Source of the DNA: Curtobacterium flaccumfaciens pv. betae
GTDB lineage: Bacteria; Actinomycetota; Actinomycetes; Actinomycetales; Microbacteriaceae
DNA length: 64,000 nt
Direction of reading: 5' to 3'
Assembly (NCBI RefSeq): GCF_026241855.1
Contig: NZ_JAPJDC010000001.1
Location: 1,860,001 to 1,924,000, forward strand
In this document: piece after piece, positions 17,708 through 57,969 of the stretch
Numbering within the stretch: the first letter of the stretch is position 1
How the letters are laid out: every line of letters starts with the position of its first letter
Made by a program: the position numbers and the translations under genes
Notes under the pieces: model-generated
The model's database searches: none
Told to the model about the DNA's origin: nothing
The model's input: the letters and a program-made list of their open reading frames with translations, nothing else

Positions 17708-18054
17708 TGCCCATCGAGATCCAGGAGATCGACGTCGCCGAGGCGCAGCGCCGCCTCGACGCCGGAGCCCGCCTGTTCGACGTCCGCGAGCAGGGGGAGT
17801 GGGACGAGGTCCACGCTCCCCAGGCCACGCTCGTGCCGATGTCGGAGTTCGTGGACCGCTGGCAGGAGATCGACGGCGGCGACCAGCCGGCCATCATCGT
17901 CTGCCACTCCGGCGGCCGGTCATCGCGCATCGTCGCGGCGCTCGAGCAGTCTGGCGTGCCGGCCGTCAACCTCTCCGGCGGCATGCTCGCGTGGGAGCAG
18001 GCGGGGGCGCCGGTGGAGCGCGACGCCCAGGGCGAACCACGTCACGGGCACTGA
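17707..18054 (+). CDS. Single-domain rhodanese-like protein
   Basis: 115 residues with the rhodanese fold: LFDVREQGEWDEVH and the active-site loop VCHSGGRSSR whose Cys can carry a persulfide. Substrate unknown; candidates are sulfur transfer or cyanide/thiosulfate detoxification. ATG overlaps the secF stop, so it is in the secDF transcript, in the slot where mycobacteria have apt. A TAGTCT box and an 11-bp tandem duplication (CGGATCGAGCT, 18075-18096) precede the next gene. Confidence 0.88.
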   Translation: MPIEIQEIDVAEAQRRLDAGARLFDVREQGEWDEVHAPQATLVPMSEFVDRWQEIDGGDQPAIIVCHSGGRSSRIVAALEQSGVPAVNLSGGMLAWEQAGAPVERDAQGEPRHGH

Positions 18055-18123
18055 CCGGGGACGCGTAGTCTTGTCGGATCGAGCTCGGATCGAGCTCTCG
18101 GACCGAGTCCTGGGAGGCGCATC

Positions 18124-20448
18124 ATGACGGACACCCGCGAAGAGCCGTCCGCGCCGAGCCGCCCGGGTTCCGCTCCGCGGCCCTCGAGCCCGATCGGTCC
18201 GAACACCACCGGCAACCTCGGTTCCCTCCGCTCACTGCTGCCGCGCCTGTTCTCGCGGGCCCAGCCGGCCGGCGCGGTGGACACGCTGATCCGCACGGTC
18301 CGCTCGCACCACCCCAAGGCCGACGTGACGCTCATCGAGCGTGCGTACTCGGTCGCCGAGCGCGCACACGACGGTCAGAAGCGCAAGTCCGGTGAGCCGT
18401 ACATCACGCACCCGGTCGCGGTCGCGCAGATCCTGGCCGACCTCGGCATCGGCACGATCACCATCGCGGCGGCGCTCCTGCACGACACCGTCGAGGACAC
18501 CGACTACCAGCTCGACCAGCTGCGGGCCGACTTCGGCGACGAGATCGCGATGCTCGTCGACGGCGTCACCAAGCTCGACAAGGTCAAGTACGGCGACAGC
18601 GCGCAGGCGGAGACCGTCCGCAAGATGGTCATCGCCATGTCGAAGGACATCCGCGTCCTCGTCATCAAGCTCGCCGACCGCCTGCACAACGCCCGCACGT
18701 GGGGCTTCGTCGAGTCCGCCTCCGCCACGCGCAAGGCGAAGGAGACGCTCGAGATCTACGCGCCGCTCGCGCACCGGCTCGGCATCCAGATGATCAAGCT
18801 CGAGCTCGAGGACCTGTCGTTCGCAGTCCTGCACCCGAAGCTCTACGTCGAGATCGACAGCCTGGTCAAGGAACGCCAGCCGAAGCGCGAGCAGTTCGTC
18901 CAGAACGTCATCGGCACCCTGAAGAAGGACCTGAAGGCCGCCAAGGTCCGTGGCGACGTCATGGGCCGGCCGAAGCAGTACTACTCGATCTACCAGAAGA
19001 TGATCGTGCGGGGTCGCGAGTTCGACGAGATCTACGACCTCGTCGGCATCCGCGTGCTCGTGCCGACCGTCCGCGACTGCTACGCCATGCTCGGCTCGGT
19101 GCACGCCCGCTGGACCCCGCTGCCCGGTCGGTTCAAGGACTACATCGCGACCCCCAAGTTCAACCTGTACCAGTCGTTGCACACCACGGTGCTCGGACCG
19201 CAGGGTCGTGCGGTCGAGATCCAGATCCGCACACACGAGATGCACCAGCGCGCCGAGTTCGGTGTCGCCGCCCACTGGAAGTACAAGCAGCGGGCTGCCG
19301 GCCGTGACGCCGGTACCTCGTCGACCACGGACGACCAGGACATGGCGTGGCTCGCCCACATCACCGACTGGCAGGCCGAGACCAGCGACCCGGGCGAGTT
19401 CCTCGACTCGCTGCGCTACGAGATCGGCGCCAAGGAGACCTACGTCTTCACGCCGCAGGGCAAGGTCATCGGTCTCCCCGCCGGAGCCACCCCGGTCGAC
19501 TTCGCCTACGCGGTGCACACCGAGATCGGCCACCGCACGATGGGTGCGAAGGTCAACGGCCGTCTCGTCCCGCTCGAGAGCCAGCTGTCCAGCGGCGACG
19601 TCGTCGAGATCTTCACGTCGAAGAACCCCGACTCCGGCCCCTCGCAGGACTGGCTGCAGTTCGTCCGCAGCCCCCGTGCGCGCAACAAGATCAAGCAGTG
19701 GTTCACCAAGGAGCGCCGCGAAGAGGCGATCGAGCAGGGTCGCGACGCCATCGCCCGGGCGATGCGCAAGCAGAACCTGCCGCTCCAACGCATCATGAGC
19801 CAGGACAGCATCGCCGAGGTCGCCTCGTCGATGCGGTACGAGGACGTCTCCGCCCTGTACGCCGCCATCGGCGAAGGCCACGTGTCGACGCAGTCGGTCA
19901 TCGAGAAGGTCCTCGGCAACGTCCAGACCGAGACCGAGACGGACGAGCCGGAACTCGCGTTCCCGCGCCAGGTCACCAGTCGTCAGCTGCGCACGAGCGA
20001 CAGCGGCGTGCTCGTCCGCGGTGCGCCCGACATCCTCGTGAAACTCGCGAAGTGCTGCACGCCGGTGCCGGGCGACCAGATCGTGGGCTTCATCACCCGA
20101 GGCCAGGGCGTCTCCGTGCACCAGTCGTCGTGCACCAACGTGAAGTCCCTCATGAACGAACCCGACCGGATGATCGAGGTCGAGTGGGCCCCGTCGTCGA
20201 AGTCGGTGTTCCTGGTGCAGATCCAGATCGAGGCGCTCGATCGGTCAGGCCTGCTCAGCGACGTCACCCGGGTGCTGACCGACCACCACGTGAACATCCT
20301 GTCCGCGACGGTGTCGACCTCGTCCGACCGTCTCGCGCTCAGCCGGTTCGTGTTCGAGATGGGCGACACCATCCACCTCGACCGCGTCCTGAACGCGGTG
20401 CGACGCATCGACGCCGTCTACGACGTCTACCGCGTCAGCGCCGGCTAG
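18124..20448 (+). CDS. rel: Bifunctional (p)ppGpp synthetase/hydrolase
   Basis: Makes and degrades the stringent-response alarmone. 774 residues. HD hydrolase domain with H120-D121 in ALLHDTVEDT; synthetase domain with RFKD at 336-339, the charge pattern of bifunctional enzymes (single-function RelA has EXDD); TGS domain (YVFTPQGKVIGLPAG); a zinc/RIS segment with CCTPVPGD; and C-terminal ACT domain. RBS GGGAGG before ATG; TAGTCT at 18066 is a likely -10. Followed by the 181-bp repeat array instead of a simple terminator. Confidence 0.96.
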   Translation: MTDTREEPSAPSRPGSAPRPSSPIGPNTTGNLGSLRSLLPRLFSRAQPAGAVDTLIRTVRSHHPKADVTLIERAYSVAERAHDGQKRKSGEPYITHPVAVAQILADLGIGTITIAAALLHDTVEDTDYQLDQLRADFGDEIAMLVDGVTKLDKVKYGDSAQAETVRKMVIAMSKDIRVLVIKLADRLHNARTWGFVESASATRKAKETLEIYAPLAHRLGIQMIKLELEDLSFAVLHPKLYVEIDSLVKERQPKREQFVQNVIGTLKKDLKAAKVRGDVMGRPKQYYSIYQKMIVRGREFDEIYDLVGIRVLVPTVRDCYAMLGSVHARWTPLPGRFKDYIATPKFNLYQSLHTTVLGPQGRAVEIQIRTHEMHQRAEFGVAAHWKYKQRAAGRDAGTSSTTDDQDMAWLAHITDWQAETSDPGEFLDSLRYEIGAKETYVFTPQGKVIGLPAGATPVDFAYAVHTEIGHRTMGAKVNGRLVPLESQLSSGDVVEIFTSKNPDSGPSQDWLQFVRSPRARNKIKQWFTKERREEAIEQGRDAIARAMRKQNLPLQRIMSQDSIAEVASSMRYEDVSALYAAIGEGHVSTQSVIEKVLGNVQTETETDEPELAFPRQVTSRQLRTSDSGVLVRGAPDILVKLAKCCTPVPGDQIVGFITRGQGVSVHQSSCTNVKSLMNEPDRMIEVEWAPSSKSVFLVQIQIEALDRSGLLSDVTRVLTDHHVNILSATVSTSSDRLALSRFVFEMGDTIHLDRVLNAVRRIDAVYDVYRVSAG

Positions 20449-20473
20449 CGGCAGGGCCCCGCGCGGCACGTCC

Positions 20474-21110
20474 GTCGACCGGTCGCGAACCGTCGGCTGC
20501 GGCCCTGCCAACCGACGGTTCGCGACCACTCGGCGGACGCGAGCGGGGTGTCCTGACCGCCCCCACGCGCCCGACCGGAGGCCCACGGCAGCCCCGCCCC
20601 GCGCCTCCCGTGTCTCCAGCCCGTCCACCGGTCACGACTCGTCGAACCGGCACCGTCGACCGGTCACGAACCGTCAGCCGGGGCCCTGCCAACCGACAGT
20701 CCGCGACCACTCGGCGGACGCGAGCGGGGTGTCCTGACCGCCCCCACGCGCCCGACCGGAGGCCCACGGCAGCCCCGCCCCGCGCCTCCCGTGACTCAGC
20801 CCCATCCGCCGGTCACGACTCGTCGTACCGGCACCGCCGACCGGTCACGAACCGTCGGCCGGGGCCCGGCCAACCGACAGTCCGCGACCACTCGGCGAAC
20901 GCGAGCGGGGTGTCTTGACCGCCCCCACGCGCCCGACCGGAGGCCCGCGGCAGCCCCGCCCCGCGCCTCCCGTGCCTCCCGCCCGTCCACCGGTCACCAC
21001 TCGTCGCACGGGCACCGTCGACCGGTCACGAACCGTCAGCCGCGGCCCAGCCAACCGACGGTCCGCGACCACTCGGCGGAAGCGAGCGGGGTGTCCTGAC
21101 CGCTCGGCGA
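20474..21110. repeat. Tandem array of a 181-bp composite palindromic unit (about 3.5 copies)
   Basis: The segment starting CGCGACCACTCGGCGG recurs at 20521, 20702, 20883 and 21064, an exact 181-bp period. Each unit holds a GGAGGC palindrome (for example 20575-20612), an outer inverted pair (GGTCACGAC / GTCCTGACC), and an inner inverted repeat. In the first copy the inner arms are perfect over 16 bp: GGTCGCGAACCGTCGG at 20481-20496 and its reverse complement at 20512-20527. Frames that stay open here translate only the repeat and I do not call genes. Related single elements are at 21803-21881 and 28105-28433. Confidence 0.9.
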
Positions 21111-21126
21111 ACGCGCCGGCGACGCC

Positions 21127-21741
21127 CTAGCGGACAGCGCCCCCAGCGCCCCCAGCGCCCCCTGCCGCATCAGGCAGCCCCGGCAACCCCGGCAGCCCCC
21201 ACAACCGCCGCTCAGCCTGCCGCACCATGGGAATCGTCCCGAGCGACCTCAGGCGCGCCTGCAGCTCGGCGACCGTGACCGCCCCGATCGCGAGCAACCC
21301 GTGCACGGCCGTCGCCTCGGCCACCCCGAACGCACCGGCCGTCGGCCCCGGCGTCCGGAGCAGGTCGACCGCGGTCCGCGTCGGCAGCGTGACCCGCAGC
21401 CGCGAGAGCTCGACGGTGTCCGCGACGTCGATCCGGACCTCTCGCAGGCGGACGTCCGGCCCGACGTGCACGCGCACCTGCGGCGGGATGCAGGCCTCGA
21501 GCGGCGCCGGCGGCCGGGACACCGCACCCCAGATCCACGCGGCGGTCAGCGTGCAGGCGATCAGGCGCGCGTCCCGCAGGACCCATGCTGCAGCGGCGGC
21601 GCGCAACCACGGCGTCTGCGGTTCGGCGGGGGAGGCCCAGCAGGGACCGACGGCGACCACCTCGCCGGCCAGGACCGCCGCACGCAGCTCGGGTTCCGGC
21701 CAGTCGTCACTGGTCAGCAGTCGCGGGCGGGGCACCCGCAC
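21127..21741 (-). CDS. AbiEi-like antitoxin-family protein, orphan
   Basis: 204 residues from GTG 21739-21741 (GGCAGGA upstream); a longer start at 21822 is possible. The layout LLTSDDWPEPELRAAVLAGE, then TAAWIWGA and TRTAVDLLRTP, resembles Microbacteriaceae proteins annotated as type IV toxin-antitoxin AbiEi antitoxins, with a DNA-binding/DUF559-like look. No AbiEii nucleotidyltransferase toxin is next to it, so a regulator role or remnant is as likely. The C-terminus is Gly/Ala-rich (GGAGGAGGAVR) and abuts the repeat array. Confidence 0.55.
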   Translation of the reverse strand: MRVPRPRLLTSDDWPEPELRAAVLAGEVVAVGPCWASPAEPQTPWLRAAAAAWVLRDARLIACTLTAAWIWGAVSRPPAPLEACIPPQVRVHVGPDVRLREVRIDVADTVELSRLRVTLPTRTAVDLLRTPGPTAGAFGVAEATAVHGLLAIGAVTVAELQARLRSLGTIPMVRQAERRLWGLPGLPGLPDAAGGAGGAGGAVR

Positions 21742-21930
21742 ATCCTGCCTGACCTGCGCGGGCGACCGACAGGCCTGTGGACAAGCCACCCACCTGCCGG
21801 GAGGCTCGTGGCGGGCCCGCACCGCTCCTCCAGGCCGTCGCCGGTCACGTCCACGGCGTGGGCCGCGTCGACGACGCGACCAGCCGCGCCCGCGCGCCGG
21901 ATCGGGCCCGGCCGGACGGGACGCGCGCGC
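21742..21930. repeat. Intergenic stretch with a reduced copy of the composite palindrome
   Basis: 21803-21840 is an imperfect GGAGGC palindrome (left CCGGGAGGC, right arm TCCTCCAGGCC). Directly after it comes GGTCACGTC (21843-21851) with its partner GACGCGACC (21873-21881). This is the same order as in the 181-bp unit but shorter. No gene seen. Confidence 0.6.
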
Positions 21931-22884
21931 TCAGCGCAGGACGTCGGCGCGGTGCACGAGCGCCGCGGCACCGATGAGCGGACCGTCCTGGGACAACCCG
22001 GTCGGCACGATCTGCACCTTCGTGACGAACCCGAACTCGACACGCTCCGCCACGGCCTGCCGGGCGTACTCGAACAGGTCCGGCGTGACGTGCGAGAACC
22101 CGCCGCCGATGGCGACGATCTCGAGGTCGACCAGGCTCGTGGCGGCGGCGATGGCCTGCCCGAGGGCACGGCCGCTCCGCTGGACCGCGGCGACGGCGAT
22201 CTCGTCGCCGGCGGCGTAGGCGGCCGAGAGCTCCTCGCCGGTCGTGCCCGCGAAGCCCTGACGACGTGCCCAGGCCACGGTCTTCGGGCCGCTGGCGATC
22301 GCCTCGAGGCAACCGGTGCCCCCGCAGGCGCAGGGGTCGTCGTAACCGCCGCACTCGACGTGGCCGATGTGGCCGGCGTTGCCCGTCGGTCCGCTGACGG
22401 TGCGACCGTGCAGGATGAGCCCGCCGCCGACGCCGGTGGAGACGATCATGCCCATGACGTGTTCGTACCCCTGGGCCGCGCCGACCCAGTGCTCGGCAAG
22501 GGTGATCGCCAGGCCGTCCATCCGGAGCGTCACCGGGACGTCGCCCGGCACGAGCGCCGCGATCCGGTCGCGCAGCGGGTGGCCACGCCAGACCGGCATG
22601 TTGAGCGGGGAGACGAGGCCGTGCTCCTCGTCGACGGGCCCGGCGGAACCGACGCCGACACCCACGAGCGTCGCGTCGGCCGGCAGCGCGCCGAGCGCGG
22701 CCGTGACGACCTCGTCGACGGCGGCCTGCAGCTCGTCCGAGGTGCGCTGGGGCCCGGTGGGGCTGCGGAACCGGGTCGCCGGCAGCACGACGCCCTGGTC
22801 GGTGACGAGCGCGGCCTCGACCTTCGTGCCGCCGAGGTCGACGGCCAGGGCGAGGGCGGGGGACTGAGGTGCGGTGCTGGACAT
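21931..22884 (-). CDS. ROK-family sugar kinase
   Basis: 317 residues. N-terminal phosphate loop VDLGGTKVE, the ROK sugar-binding GNAGHIGHVE, and the zinc motif CACGGTGCLE. Probably an ATP-dependent glucokinase or related hexose/N-acetylhexosamine kinase; substrate cannot be fixed. No HTH domain, so a kinase rather than a repressor. ATG at 22882-22884 with GGAG upstream. It lies about 150 bp downstream of deoC on the same strand, with a short repeat array between. Confidence 0.85.
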   Translation of the reverse strand: MSSTAPQSPALALAVDLGGTKVEAALVTDQGVVLPATRFRSPTGPQRTSDELQAAVDEVVTAALGALPADATLVGVGVGSAGPVDEEHGLVSPLNMPVWRGHPLRDRIAALVPGDVPVTLRMDGLAITLAEHWVGAAQGYEHVMGMIVSTGVGGGLILHGRTVSGPTGNAGHIGHVECGGYDDPCACGGTGCLEAIASGPKTVAWARRQGFAGTTGEELSAAYAAGDEIAVAAVQRSGRALGQAIAAATSLVDLEIVAIGGGFSHVTPDLFEYARQAVAERVEFGFVTKVQIVPTGLSQDGPLIGAAALVHRADVLR

Positions 22885-22983
22885 GCGCGCTCCGATGCGG
22901 CGGTCTGGAGGCACGGTGCGGGTCGCCGACGCGTCGTCGCGTCCGGTAGGCACCGGCCTGGTCGTGGTGGGTCGTGCTGGGCG

Positions 22984-23035
22984 CGTGGGCTCAGCCCGGT
23001 GGGCTCAGCCAGGTCGGCTCAGCCCGTGGGTTCAG
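22984..23035. repeat. Four imperfect 14-bp repeats of GGGCTCAGCC
   Basis: Units begin at 22984, 22997, 23011 and 23025, with core GGCTCAGCC (itself a 4+1+4 palindrome) at 13-14-bp spacing. The last unit contains the deoC stop codon. On the minus strand every unit gives TGA, closing all three frames. Could be an operator cluster upstream of the ROK kinase or simple slippage. Confidence 0.7.
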
Positions 23036-26400: not shown

Positions 26401-27954
26401 ATGAACGACGAGACCGAGCCGGTGACCGAGAGTCCTCTGCTGAACCCTCGACCGTCCTCCGGCGGTCTCGACCGATCCGACGTCGTCGTCCGCAAGGGGC
26501 GACTGACCCTGATCAACGGACACCTCACGCCCCAGCAGTCGATGATCGAGGACCTGCTGTTCCTCGACGACGCGCTCACCGCGGCTGACGTCGACCACCT
26601 GCTCATCCGCGGCAACGACCAGCGCCCGGTGATCGCCCTCGACGAGCGTGACCGCCAGCGCGCGGAGAGCGCCGTGATGTCCGCGGCCGTCAACGAGCCC
26701 TTCTACGCGAAGCCCCCGGGCAAGCCGGCGGTGCTCGTGCAGGACGACGGACTCGGCTCCCTCGAAGAACCGGTGCTCCGCGTGTTCCGCCCGCGGCTCG
26801 AGCCGCTCGGACGCCTGCGCTACGGCGCCGAGACGAGCGTCCAGCTCGAGTTCTGGCGCGTCACCGACATCGAGGTCCTCGCTCCCGTCGAGAACGCCCT
26901 GATGCGTCGCAGCCTGCCGATCGACGAGTTCGTGCTCGTCGACATCGAACGCTACGGCCGCACCTGGCGAACCGTCGAGCACATGTTCGACGACCACGTC
27001 TCGGACATCCGCTTCCCGATCGACATCGTCTTCTCATGGGTCGACGGCAACGCCATCGAGTACCAGCGCGCCCGCCAGGCCGCACAGTCGAACGCCGTCC
27101 TGGGCGAGGGCGACGACGCCCCGGCCCGGTTCCGCCAGATCGACGAGCTGAAGTACGCGCTCCGCTCGGTGCACACCTTCGCACCGTGGATCCGCAAGAT
27201 CTACATCGCGACGGACTCCCCGGCACCGCACTGGCTCGCCGATCACCCGAAGGTCAGGATCGTCCGCAGCGAGGAGTTCTTCGCCGACCCGTCCGTCCTG
27301 CCGACCCACAACTCGCAGGCCGTCGAGTCGCAGCTGCACCACATCCCGGGCATCAGCGAGCACTTCATCTACTCGAACGACGACATGTTCTTCGGACGCC
27401 TCGTCGACCCCTCGGCGTTCTACAGCCCGGGATCGGTCACGAAGTTCATCCTCGCGTCGACCCGGATCGGCCTCGGCTCCAACAACCCGGCGCGCAGCGG
27501 TTTCGAGAACTCCGCCCGCGTGAACCGTCGCCTGCTGCAGCAGCGCTTCGGTGCGGTGACGACCCGGCACCTTGAGCATGCCCCGACGCCCCTGCGCGCC
27601 TCGATCATGACCGAGATGGAGCACGAGTTCGCCGACGAGTTCGCGGCCACAGCGGCGTCACGCTTCCGCGCCGCCGACAACATCTCGGTGACGAACTCGC
27701 TGTACCACTACTACTCGCTGCTCACCGGTCGGGCGATCATCCAGGAGAACGCGGCCGTCGGGTACATCGACACGACCATGGTCTCCGGGCTCAAGGCCCT
27801 CGACGAGCTGCTGAAGAAGCGGAACGTGGACTTCTTCTGCCTCAACGACGGCAGCTTCCCGGAGGTCAGCGACGAGGAGCGCACGCAGCGCGTGACGGAC
27901 TTCCTCGAGCGTTACTTCCCGTTCCCCGCGCCGTGGGAGCGCCCCAGCGCTTAG
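26401..27954 (+). CDS. Stealth-family sugar-phosphate transferase
   Basis: 517 residues carrying all four Stealth conserved regions: CR1 DIVFSWVDG at 208-216; CR2 from RQIDELKYALRSVHTFAPW to IYSNDDMFFG (about 245-330); CR3 around PTPLRASIMTEMEHEF to TNSLYHYY (395-440); and CR4 FFCLNDGS near 480. Known members move a hexose-1-phosphate onto a glycan to build phosphodiester-linked capsule or wall polymers. The ~200-residue N-terminal part is specific to this branch. No signal peptide, and no other capsule gene is near. AAGGG precedes ATG; TAGGAT at about 26350 is a likely -10. Confidence 0.87.
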   Translation: MNDETEPVTESPLLNPRPSSGGLDRSDVVVRKGRLTLINGHLTPQQSMIEDLLFLDDALTAADVDHLLIRGNDQRPVIALDERDRQRAESAVMSAAVNEPFYAKPPGKPAVLVQDDGLGSLEEPVLRVFRPRLEPLGRLRYGAETSVQLEFWRVTDIEVLAPVENALMRRSLPIDEFVLVDIERYGRTWRTVEHMFDDHVSDIRFPIDIVFSWVDGNAIEYQRARQAAQSNAVLGEGDDAPARFRQIDELKYALRSVHTFAPWIRKIYIATDSPAPHWLADHPKVRIVRSEEFFADPSVLPTHNSQAVESQLHHIPGISEHFIYSNDDMFFGRLVDPSAFYSPGSVTKFILASTRIGLGSNNPARSGFENSARVNRRLLQQRFGAVTTRHLEHAPTPLRASIMTEMEHEFADEFAATAASRFRAADNISVTNSLYHYYSLLTGRAIIQENAAVGYIDTTMVSGLKALDELLKKRNVDFFCLNDGSFPEVSDEERTQRVTDFLERYFPFPAPWERPSA

Positions 27955-28104: not shown

Positions 28105-28433
28105 GGTCACGACTCCCCGCCACCCACACACCGGGCGGTCACAGCCCGTCGGCTGCGCCGCCGGCAAACGACGGAACATGACCACGCGACGCAGCACCGG
28201 CGGTGTGTCGTGACCACTCCGCGGGCCGGGAGGCGCGGGTCGGGCCCGCCACGGGCCTCCCGGCTGTCGGGCCGACCGTCGGGCGTGCCGTCGGGACGTA
28301 CACGACGCCGCGCGGTCACGACACCCCGTTGGCTGCCCGCCGAGCGGTCACGAACTGTTGATTGCCGAGCCGCCAGCCGACGGAACGTGACCACTCGCCG
28401 CGCACTGACGGGGAGTCGTGACCGCTCGCGGCC
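28105..28433. repeat. Two nested palindromic elements flanking a GGAGGC palindrome
   Basis: Element 1 spans 28105-28215: outer pair GGTCACGAC / GTCGTGACC, inner pair 28137-28183 (GGTCAC...ATGACC with CCGTCGG/ACGACGG). Element 2 spans 28314-28433 with inner pair 28346-28392. Between them, 28227-28263 is a palindrome (GCCGGGAGGC / GCCTCCCGGC ends). The order matches the 181-bp unit at 20474-21110, so this is a diverged second locus. No gene is called here. Confidence 0.8.
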
Positions 28434-28504: not shown

Positions 28505-29464
28505 CTACCGGTGGACGGGGGAGACGGGCACCGAGTCGAGCGTGAACACCGGGATACTCGAGGTGACCGGTGCCGGCTCCACGGCCGCGGGGATCGTCAC
28601 GCCGTGTGCGGCGAGCTTCGCCTCGGTCTCGAGCGCGGAGACGGGCTGCCCGACGGTGGCGTAGTGCCCGATCGGCACCACCGAGTGGACGACGTTGTGC
28701 CCGTAGACGTGCACGAGGTTGAACGACTGCGCACCGTCACGGCCGCGGGTGCCGCCCTGGTACTCGGTGAGGTCCTGGGTGTAGCAGGTGGCGCTGGCGA
28801 CGGACACCGGGATGCCGGCGAACACGGCACTGGTCGAGTAGTGCAGGTGACCGGCGATGATGGCGAGGACGTCGCTGCCCTCGACGACCTCGGCCAGGGC
28901 CTGCTGGTCACGCAACTCGACGAGGACGGTGAGGTCCTGGACGCTCGGTACGGGCGGGTGGTGCATCGCCAGGATGGTGCCGTGCGGCGCAGCCTCGGAC
29001 AGGACCTCGGCGAGCCAGTCGAGCTGCTCGGGGGAGACCTCGCCGTGGTGGTGACCCGGCACGCTGGTGTCGAGGGTGATCACGCGGAGCCCGTTGACGT
29101 CGTAGACGAAGTCGACCGGGCGATCGGTGGGCTGCAGGCCGAAGAGCTCCTGGCGGAAGGCACCGCGCTCGTCGTGGTTGCCCATCGCCCAGATCACCTG
29201 CGCGCCGATGCGCTGCGCGGCCGGCTCGAGGATCTCGCGGACACGGGCGTACGCGCCCGGCTCGCCCTTGTCGGCCACGTCGCCAGTGACGACGATCGCT
29301 TCGGGACGGGTGCCCGAGGCTTCGATGTCAGCGACGATCTGCGTGAGCCGAGCGGCGGAGTCGACATCGCCGTACAGGTTGCGGTCCCCGGAGACGAGGT
29401 GCGTGTCGCTGAGGTGGAGGAGGAAGTGGTTCGGCCTGGGGTGTTCGGCCGTCCGGCTGTCCAT
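28505..29464 (-). CDS. CpdA-like calcineurin-type phosphodiesterase
   Basis: 319 residues with the metallophosphoesterase signature in order: [30 protein letters not shown] and AGHLHYS, which bind two metal ions. Family members cleave cyclic nucleotides (CpdA) or other phosphodiesters; substrate here is inferred. ATG at 29462-29464 (MDSRTAEHP) follows GAGACCCC. No signal peptide, so cytosolic. Confidence 0.88.
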
Positions 29465-35122: not shown

Positions 35123-35163
35123 GGAGGCCCGGTGCCGGTTCCAGGAACCGGCACCGGGCCTCC
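35123..35163. terminator. Bidirectional terminator between trpD and glpK
   Basis: Perfect 20-bp inverted repeat (GGAGGCCCGGTGCCGGTTCC and its complement) around a single central A, between two convergent genes. Its outer GGAGGCCCGG resembles the GGAGGC palindromes elsewhere in the window. Confidence 0.85.
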
Positions 35164-49015: not shown

Positions 49016-49053
49016 ACGGGAGGCCCGTGGCGGGGCCGCCACGGGCCTCCCGT
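49016..49053. terminator. 18-bp perfect GGAGGC palindrome, likely Nudix terminator
   Basis: ACGGGAGGCCCGTGGCGG and its complement with a 2-base centre. It is 37 bp past the Nudix stop (minus strand) and upstream of the UvrA-like start. Member of the GGAGGC palindrome family. Confidence 0.8.
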
Positions 49054-57620: not shown

Positions 57621-57650
57621 TTGGCGCTAGCGGGTTCGGGCGTCCCTGGC

Positions 57651-57969
57651 GAGATCGGGCGTACCGACCGAGATCGGGCGTACCTGGCGAGATCGGGCAT
57701 ACCTGGTCAGAGCAACGCACCAGGTACGCCCGGAACGACCAGGTAGCCGAAGCCCATCGTCCATGATCGGGCGTACCTGGCGAGATCGGGCGTACCTGGC
57801 GAGATCGGGCACACCTGGCGAGATCGGGCACACCTGGCGAGATCGGGCACACCTGGCGAGATCGGGCACTCCTGGCGAGATCGGGCATACCTGGTCGGAT
57901 CAACACACCAGGTACGCCCGGAACGACCAGGTAGCCGAAGCCCACCGTCCATGATCGGGCCTACCCGGT
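57651..57969. repeat. Two-level tandem repeat in the tatA slot
   Basis: The 19-bp unit GAGATCGGGCGTACCTGGC occurs three times (57651-57707), then a 55-bp spacer, seven times (57763-57895), the same 55-bp spacer with only four changes, and one more unit (57951-57969). The higher-order period is 188 bp. Each spacer holds ACCAGGTACGCCCGG, an inverted copy of the unit. Frames here translate only repeats and are not genes. Confidence 0.9.

Follow-up and report, generated by a model that had tools for sequence, protein, structure and literature searches.

The tandem array behind rel in Curtobacterium flaccumfaciens pv. betae is, with a probability of roughly 95%, one locally amplified cluster of a dispersed, Curtobacterium-wide family of intergenic elements. 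Members of the family are located 3' of genes, and copies are locally gained and lost. The family is best read as REP/BIME-like and RAYT-less, and would probably act at gene ends.

The array behind rel and the four-box element

The window, i.e. the whole stretch of 64,000 nucleotides that was analysed, lies at 1.86-1.92 Mb on a contig of 3.70 Mb that has dnaA at base 427. The gap between the stop codon of rel (18124-20448, + strand; its product shares 96% identity with the C. luteum protein) and a convergent gene (21127-21822, - strand) is filled by the array. TRF reports a period of 181 bp with 3.5 copies, 92% matches and 0% indels, and a repeat search of the window gives spacings of 181 and 181 bp between neighbouring copies at 93% identity. 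A 21-bp word, CGACCACTCGGCGGACGCGAG, occurs with at most one mismatch at positions 20523, 20704, 20885 and 21066; by chance, 0.05 matches are expected in the window even if up to three mismatches are allowed. The recurrence every 181 bp on which the original prediction had remarked is thereby confirmed. The array, described there as exact, is so in its period but not in its sequence, as the copies are mutually 92-93% identical (7-8% divergent). It consists of four elements and three linkers, each 181-bp unit being a 110-bp element plus a 71-bp linker:

20472..21103, no strand assigned: tandem array with a 181-bp period, between rel and the convergent gene
20481..20558, - strand: element 1, without box A (B 20481-20495, B' 20513-20527, A' 20544-20558)
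20577..20608, no strand assigned: GGAGGC inverted repeat in linker 1
20630..20739, - strand: element 2 (A 20630-20644, B 20662-20676, B' 20694-20708, A' 20725-20739)
20758..20789, no strand assigned: GGAGGC inverted repeat in linker 2
20811..20920, - strand: element 3 (A 20811-20825, B 20843-20857, B' 20875-20889, A' 20906-20920)
20939..20970, no strand assigned: GGAGGC inverted repeat in linker 3
20992..21101, - strand: element 4 (A 20992-21006, B 21024-21038, B' 21056-21070, A' 21087-21101)

Two observations concern the borders of the array. The match of the convergent gene to the AbiEi antitoxin domain (PF09407) is weak, at E 3.5e-4 slightly below the curated cut-off. A CTAGCGG(C/A)CAG-like sequence is found at both array ends (20445-20455 and 21126-21137), where it extends into the stop codon of rel and into that of the convergent gene. 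The resemblance of the two ends could be due to chance or to a target duplication.

The element is 110-111 bp long and built of four 15-bp boxes in the order A> B> <B' <A', where box A approximates GGTCACGACACCCCG and box B GGTCACGAACYGTCG. In every element the four boxes share the core GGTCACGA, two forward and two reverse, with distances between core starts of 31-32, 39 and 31-32 bp. The consensus element starts with GGTC and ends with GACC. At rel, all four boxes are present in elements 2-4; elements 2 and 3 begin with GGTCACGAC, element 4 has GGTCACCAC, and element 1 lacks such a box. Copy 1 does contain the predicted inverted repeat, a perfect 16 bp (20481-20496 / 20512-20527). The GGAGGC palindrome, which had been combined with the outer pair into one composite unit, is present as well, but as a separate repeat of the linker, outside the 110-111 bp element.

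Using an iterated profile, 89 elements were collected from 33 of 40 stretches of the own genome, with a length of 110 or 111 bp in 86 cases. The spacing is rigid: it reads 31/39/32 or 32/39/32 in 62 of the 70 scored elements (all four cores with at least 5/8 letters; 3 were dropped for length and 16 for a weak core), with cores sought within limited ranges that larger spacing shifts would escape. In other genomes, where the search ranges were wider, 16 of 17 elements (all cores at least 6/8) have 31/39/32 or its mirror image.

The boxes also diverge more slowly than the spacers. Between the own genome and two relatives, with the single best pair taken at each locus, 59 of 720 box sites differ vs 83 of 604 spacer sites (Fisher p=0.0013). 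At 10 of the 12 loci it is the boxes that change more slowly (sign test p=0.04), the exceptions being locus L054 and the rel locus (boxes 6/60, spacers 3/50). Counting more rows, which are not independent of one another, yields 8.4% for boxes vs 17.3% for spacers. Because the boxes at rel look relaxed, the rel array itself may be a by-product of the family.

Distribution in the genome and the genus

The 181-bp unit matches its own genome 141 times at about 40 places, often in tandem with other periods, and the repeat is thus not confined to the rel locus. The part common to the dispersed copies is the 110-111 bp element; the linker sequence varies by place. With a sequence model, at least 91 distinct elements in at least 43 clusters were found, 23 of these clusters being multi-copy and holding 71 elements. 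Neighbouring copies within a cluster are 121-377 bp apart, mostly 142-228 bp, and share one orientation in all ten clusters where it could be called for at least two copies. A GGAGGC inverted repeat lies within 150 bp of 21 of 35 clusters and inside 13 of 22 multi-copy clusters. The window contains a second cluster:

28105..28423, - strand: elements at 28105-28215 and 28314-28423, with a GGAGGC inverted repeat between them at 28229-28260

This cluster is flanked by a Stealth-family gene (26401-27954, + strand) and a metallophosphoesterase gene (28505-29464, - strand). Outside the arrays, near-perfect GGAGGC...GCCTCC hairpins at 35123-35163 and 49019-49050 are perhaps a second dispersed repeat or a terminator family. 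A 19-bp tandem repeat of about 13.7 copies (57636-57894, unit TCGGGCGTACCTGGCGAGA) is located between two called - strand genes.

The elements avoid coding sequence, with 0.15% of their bases overlapping called genes. When copies were compared with genes, 20 of 35 clusters lay between convergent genes, 15 between tandem genes and none between divergent ones. The 60 gene junctions of the window comprise 9 convergent, 41 tandem and 10 divergent cases (p=2.7e-5 for convergent, 0.012 for divergent). Restricted to the 21 gaps of at least 100 bp, the numbers are 3, 11 and 7 (p=0.002 and 0.0005). These contexts come from a purpose-written gene caller that missed the convergent gene at 21127, so individual calls may err. 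Along the origin-terminus axis the clusters show no positional bias (KS p=0.58), and a role as origin- or terminus-organising sites was rejected.

Within the genus, 57 of 60 Curtobacterium genomes, the own one included, have a match at E<=1e-3, and the best E is 1e-15 or lower in 28 of the 60, with about 64 candidates scored per genome; G039, G051 and G052 gave no match. Elements directly after rel are found in 6 of 31 genomes (the own and 30 others). There are four copies in the own genome and between one and three in five relatives: three in G045, two each in G001, G033 and G005, and one whole copy in G011. Four and two copies both occur within the own species. G013 and G030 have one element several hundred bases beyond rel, and 23 of the 31 genomes have none within the 1.5 kb examined. 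The rel loci of C. luteum, Curtobacterium sp. MCJR17_055 and Frigoribacterium likewise contain no element. In five array-less genomes, read by eye, the end of the homologous convergent gene lies within about 100 bases of the rel stop codon. An assembly artefact has next to no probability: assembly can collapse or expand tandem repeats, but here the two-contig assembly is rated 100% complete, the copies differ by 7-8%, and the same site carries other copy numbers, 1-3, in other assemblies.

Copy number also varies elsewhere. At orthologous loci with flanks 93-98% identical, it differs in 12 of 18 comparisons by raw profile hits, and in 11 of 18 after removal of weak fragments, which leaves L046 and L192 with four copies each. 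Locus L051 has three copies in the own genome, one in G033 and none in G001. The elements there are located between two GGAGGC hairpins in the own genome and in G033, and a single hairpin is left in G001, as a deletion between the repeats would leave it. Unequal recombination or slippage between repeats would be the simplest agent of such changes.

At most loci, similarity among the copies of one array slightly exceeds that to the same locus of a relative, with L056 as an exception. Between loci (33 loci, one copy each), identity averages 71% and reaches 82% at most, so that dispersal is old and local amplification recent. The original prediction that the array was a local amplification within a repeat family dispersed in the genus is borne out by the genome-wide copies, the matches in the genus and the copy-number differences at loci.

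Candidate agents of mobility were also sought. The RAYT domain PF01797 was found in neither the own genome (0/1), the genus (0/60) nor sister genera (0/6), while positive controls were found, and a RAYT-driven REP was rejected. Plasmid and phage records gave no match to one element. Genes between clusters were dismissed as mobilisers, the gene at L065 having no Pfam match and that at L054 surface-protein domains.

Folding and covariation

On the strand preferred by the profile, the 89 elements fold strongly as RNA (mean z -4.06; z<-2 in 73 of 89) compared with control windows (mean z -0.36; z<-2 in 7 of 99). At rel, none of the other three elements folds as strongly on the rel strand as element 1 (z -5.5 as RNA, -6.0 as DNA), which forms a near-perfect long hairpin about 20-30 bases past the rel stop codon. 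Elements 2-4 are weak on this strand (RNA z 0.10, -1.64 and -0.95; DNA z 0.27, -0.14 and 0.81) and moderate on the opposite one (z -2.95, -3.33 and -2.06). The first copy after rel is weak in five relatives (z -2.5, -1.1, -1.1, -1.0 and -0.7), and the linker 20921-20991 folds no better than shuffles as single-stranded DNA (z 0.21). The view that the element does not fold, taken from three copies on one strand, was overturned by the 89-copy test and element 1. These two results raise the standing of a hairpin and lower that of a protein as the reader of the element.

Because inverted boxes fold on their own, folding cannot tell what is selected. Covariation was analysed in 26 elements, one for each locus and spacing type. 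The arms are 75-76% complementary, vs 32-37% for the stretches between them, and 80.5% of cells are paired in the pair count. Compensatory change is not seen in these arms: covariation is 0.096 vs 0.122 in shuffles (498 of 500 shuffles reach or exceed the observed value), and two-sided changes affect 9 pairs vs 12.3 for shuffles. Inner and outer arms analysed apart likewise show no excess. The nested stems of the original prediction do fold, but in Curtobacterium they are not kept by compensatory change, so that stems may not be what matters.

Between 20300 and 21300 there is no intrinsic terminator, i.e. no G+C-rich stem followed by a T run, in keeping with the earlier view that the unit is not an ordinary terminator; a canonical terminator was rejected accordingly. 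A known RNA family was also rejected, as an Rfam covariance-model search of 18000-23000 returned nothing at E<=1.

Across the family Microbacteriaceae, 9 of 150 genomes match at E<=1e-6 among the 25 candidates scored per genome, three from Curtobacterium and six from other genera (31-38 bits). Two of these six, searched singly, gave 17 and 22 matches with both strands counted. An exact pattern of the inner palindrome hit only the own genome among 100 genomes of the family and is too strict to be weighed against the model hits. The inner palindrome of the sister genera keeps the core at a spacing of 39-40 bp and is a likely, not a proved, homologue of the Curtobacterium element. Other genera (L205, L206, L232-L257; G199, G175) have their own versions with stems of about 21 bp and genus-specific sequence. 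In G199 (8 of 9 copies aligned; L244, with a misplaced centre, was omitted) the inner palindrome covaries strongly, with two-sided changes in 13 of 21 pairs and a covariation score reached by 0 of 500 shuffles. In G175 (9 of 9 copies) it covaries weakly (3 of 21 pairs; 28 of 500 shuffles). The palindrome centres were placed where pairing was maximal, so the paired fraction is overestimated.

Known repeats and candidate functions

ERIC, RIME and BOX, which belong to other phyla, are likewise intergenic, palindromic or modular in build and about 100-150 bp long; the element can be likened to them by description only. With REP and BIME, as described in the available parts of PMC2817692 and PMC3733652, it shares many copies, an extragenic location, palindromic structure and frequent clustering. 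REPs usually exceed 100 copies per genome (PMC2817692, available part), compared with at least 91 here. In contrast to the REP, a single palindrome of 20-40 bp, the element has four boxes and a length mostly of 110 or 111 bp. Many REPs are tagged GTAG or CGTC at one end, the GTAG class being tied to RAYTs (both from the part of PMC3733652 at hand); the GGTC...GACC consensus has neither tag, and the PF01797 gene that a RAYT-mobilised REP needs was not found in the genomes searched. According to the sections of PMC2817692 consulted, REP palindromes are kept by complementary mutations, unlike the Curtobacterium arms, and BIMEs are regularly spaced REPs in alternating orientation, unlike the uniformly oriented arrays found here. 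The family is REP/BIME-like in place and probably in number, but not REP by size, tag, RAYT and covariation.

Similar to the MIRU-VNTR of Mycobacterium tuberculosis, the arrays are actinobacterial, tandem and variable in copy number at some loci; MIRU-VNTR loci number 41, vs at least 43 clusters, and MIRU units measure 46-101 bp, vs the copy spacing given above. The palindromic four-box design is absent from the MIRU description, and the two are set apart by description only (all from the part of PMC3914561 available). The main text of PMC3733652, as far as available, does not mention actinobacteria, Clavibacter, Leifsonia, Microbacteri or Curtobacterium. The same holds for actinobacteria, gram-positive, Curtobacterium and Microbacteri in the available main text of PMC2817692. 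PMC12306157, in the part available, includes three Actinomycetota, neither Curtobacterium nor Microbacterium among them. Among the papers listed by the literature searches, with subscription journals mostly outside the scope, none describes these repeats in its title or the start of its abstract.

What the element does can be proposed only tentatively. The most favoured mechanism, though less likely than not, is that the boxes are read by a putative protein at gene ends and serve a boundary function. A sequence-specific, probably multimeric protein would bind them on duplex DNA; a distance of 31-32 bp corresponds to three helical turns and would place A and B on one face. At gene ends, mostly convergent ones, the complex would form a two-sided boundary that stalls transcription or absorbs supercoiling. 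BIMEs, reported to bind IHF and gyrase and also DNA polymerase I, and REPs, reported to aid Rho-dependent termination, offer precedents: BIMEs are said to form such boundaries with gyrase, IHF and Rho (PMC2817692, available text). The rigid spacing in own and other genomes, the complementary yet non-covarying arms, the slower boxes and the bias towards convergent junctions are in favour of this mechanism. At rel, however, the boxes are not slower than the spacers, and the strong folding together with the covariation in G199 fits a hairpin role, at least ancestrally.

Slightly less probable is a non-autonomous mobile element of old date that resembles a MITE or a REP and now plays no role for the host. 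The boxes would be leftover transposase-binding ends, the enzyme lost or unrecognised, and the arrays passive satellites where selection tolerates them. This would suit the gene-end location away from promoters, as in selfish repeats, the patchy occurrence directly after rel, the old spread of the sequence and the relaxed rel array. The 60 Curtobacterium genomes have no PF01797 match and plasmid and phage records no match to one element, however, and decay alone does not explain the slower boxes in 10 of 12 loci and the rare indels.

Slightly less probable again is a hairpin, as RNA or cruciform at gene 3' ends, that would terminate transcription in both directions, stabilise transcript ends or be a site of processing. 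The folding of most elements, the long hairpin of element 1, the covariation in G199 and weakly in G175, and the 3' location agree with it. Against it stand the lack of compensatory change in Curtobacterium, the lack of a T-run terminator at rel, the weak folds of elements 2-4 on the rel strand and of the first copy in five relatives, and a rigidity of spacer length that a hairpin does not need.

For the protein-read boxes, a bolder version is improbable. The element may be a chromosome-wide site of a putative Microbacteriaceae DNA-binding protein, which would form a four-site helical-phase complex at gene 3' ends, an insulator between convergent units whose strength would be set by copy number. 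Box sequence and phase in Curtobacterium would have replaced an ancestral hairpin that is still kept by compensatory change in sister genera.

RAYT transposases and folding are the usual explanation of REP-type repeats, and here an abundant actinobacterial family of rigid four-box design has no detectable RAYT. Its stem covaries in a sister genus but not in Curtobacterium, and near relatives differ in copy number. A selfish repeat, a hairpin and a protein-bound boundary thereby become testable against one another with one 110-bp probe, and the variable arrays could double as strain markers.
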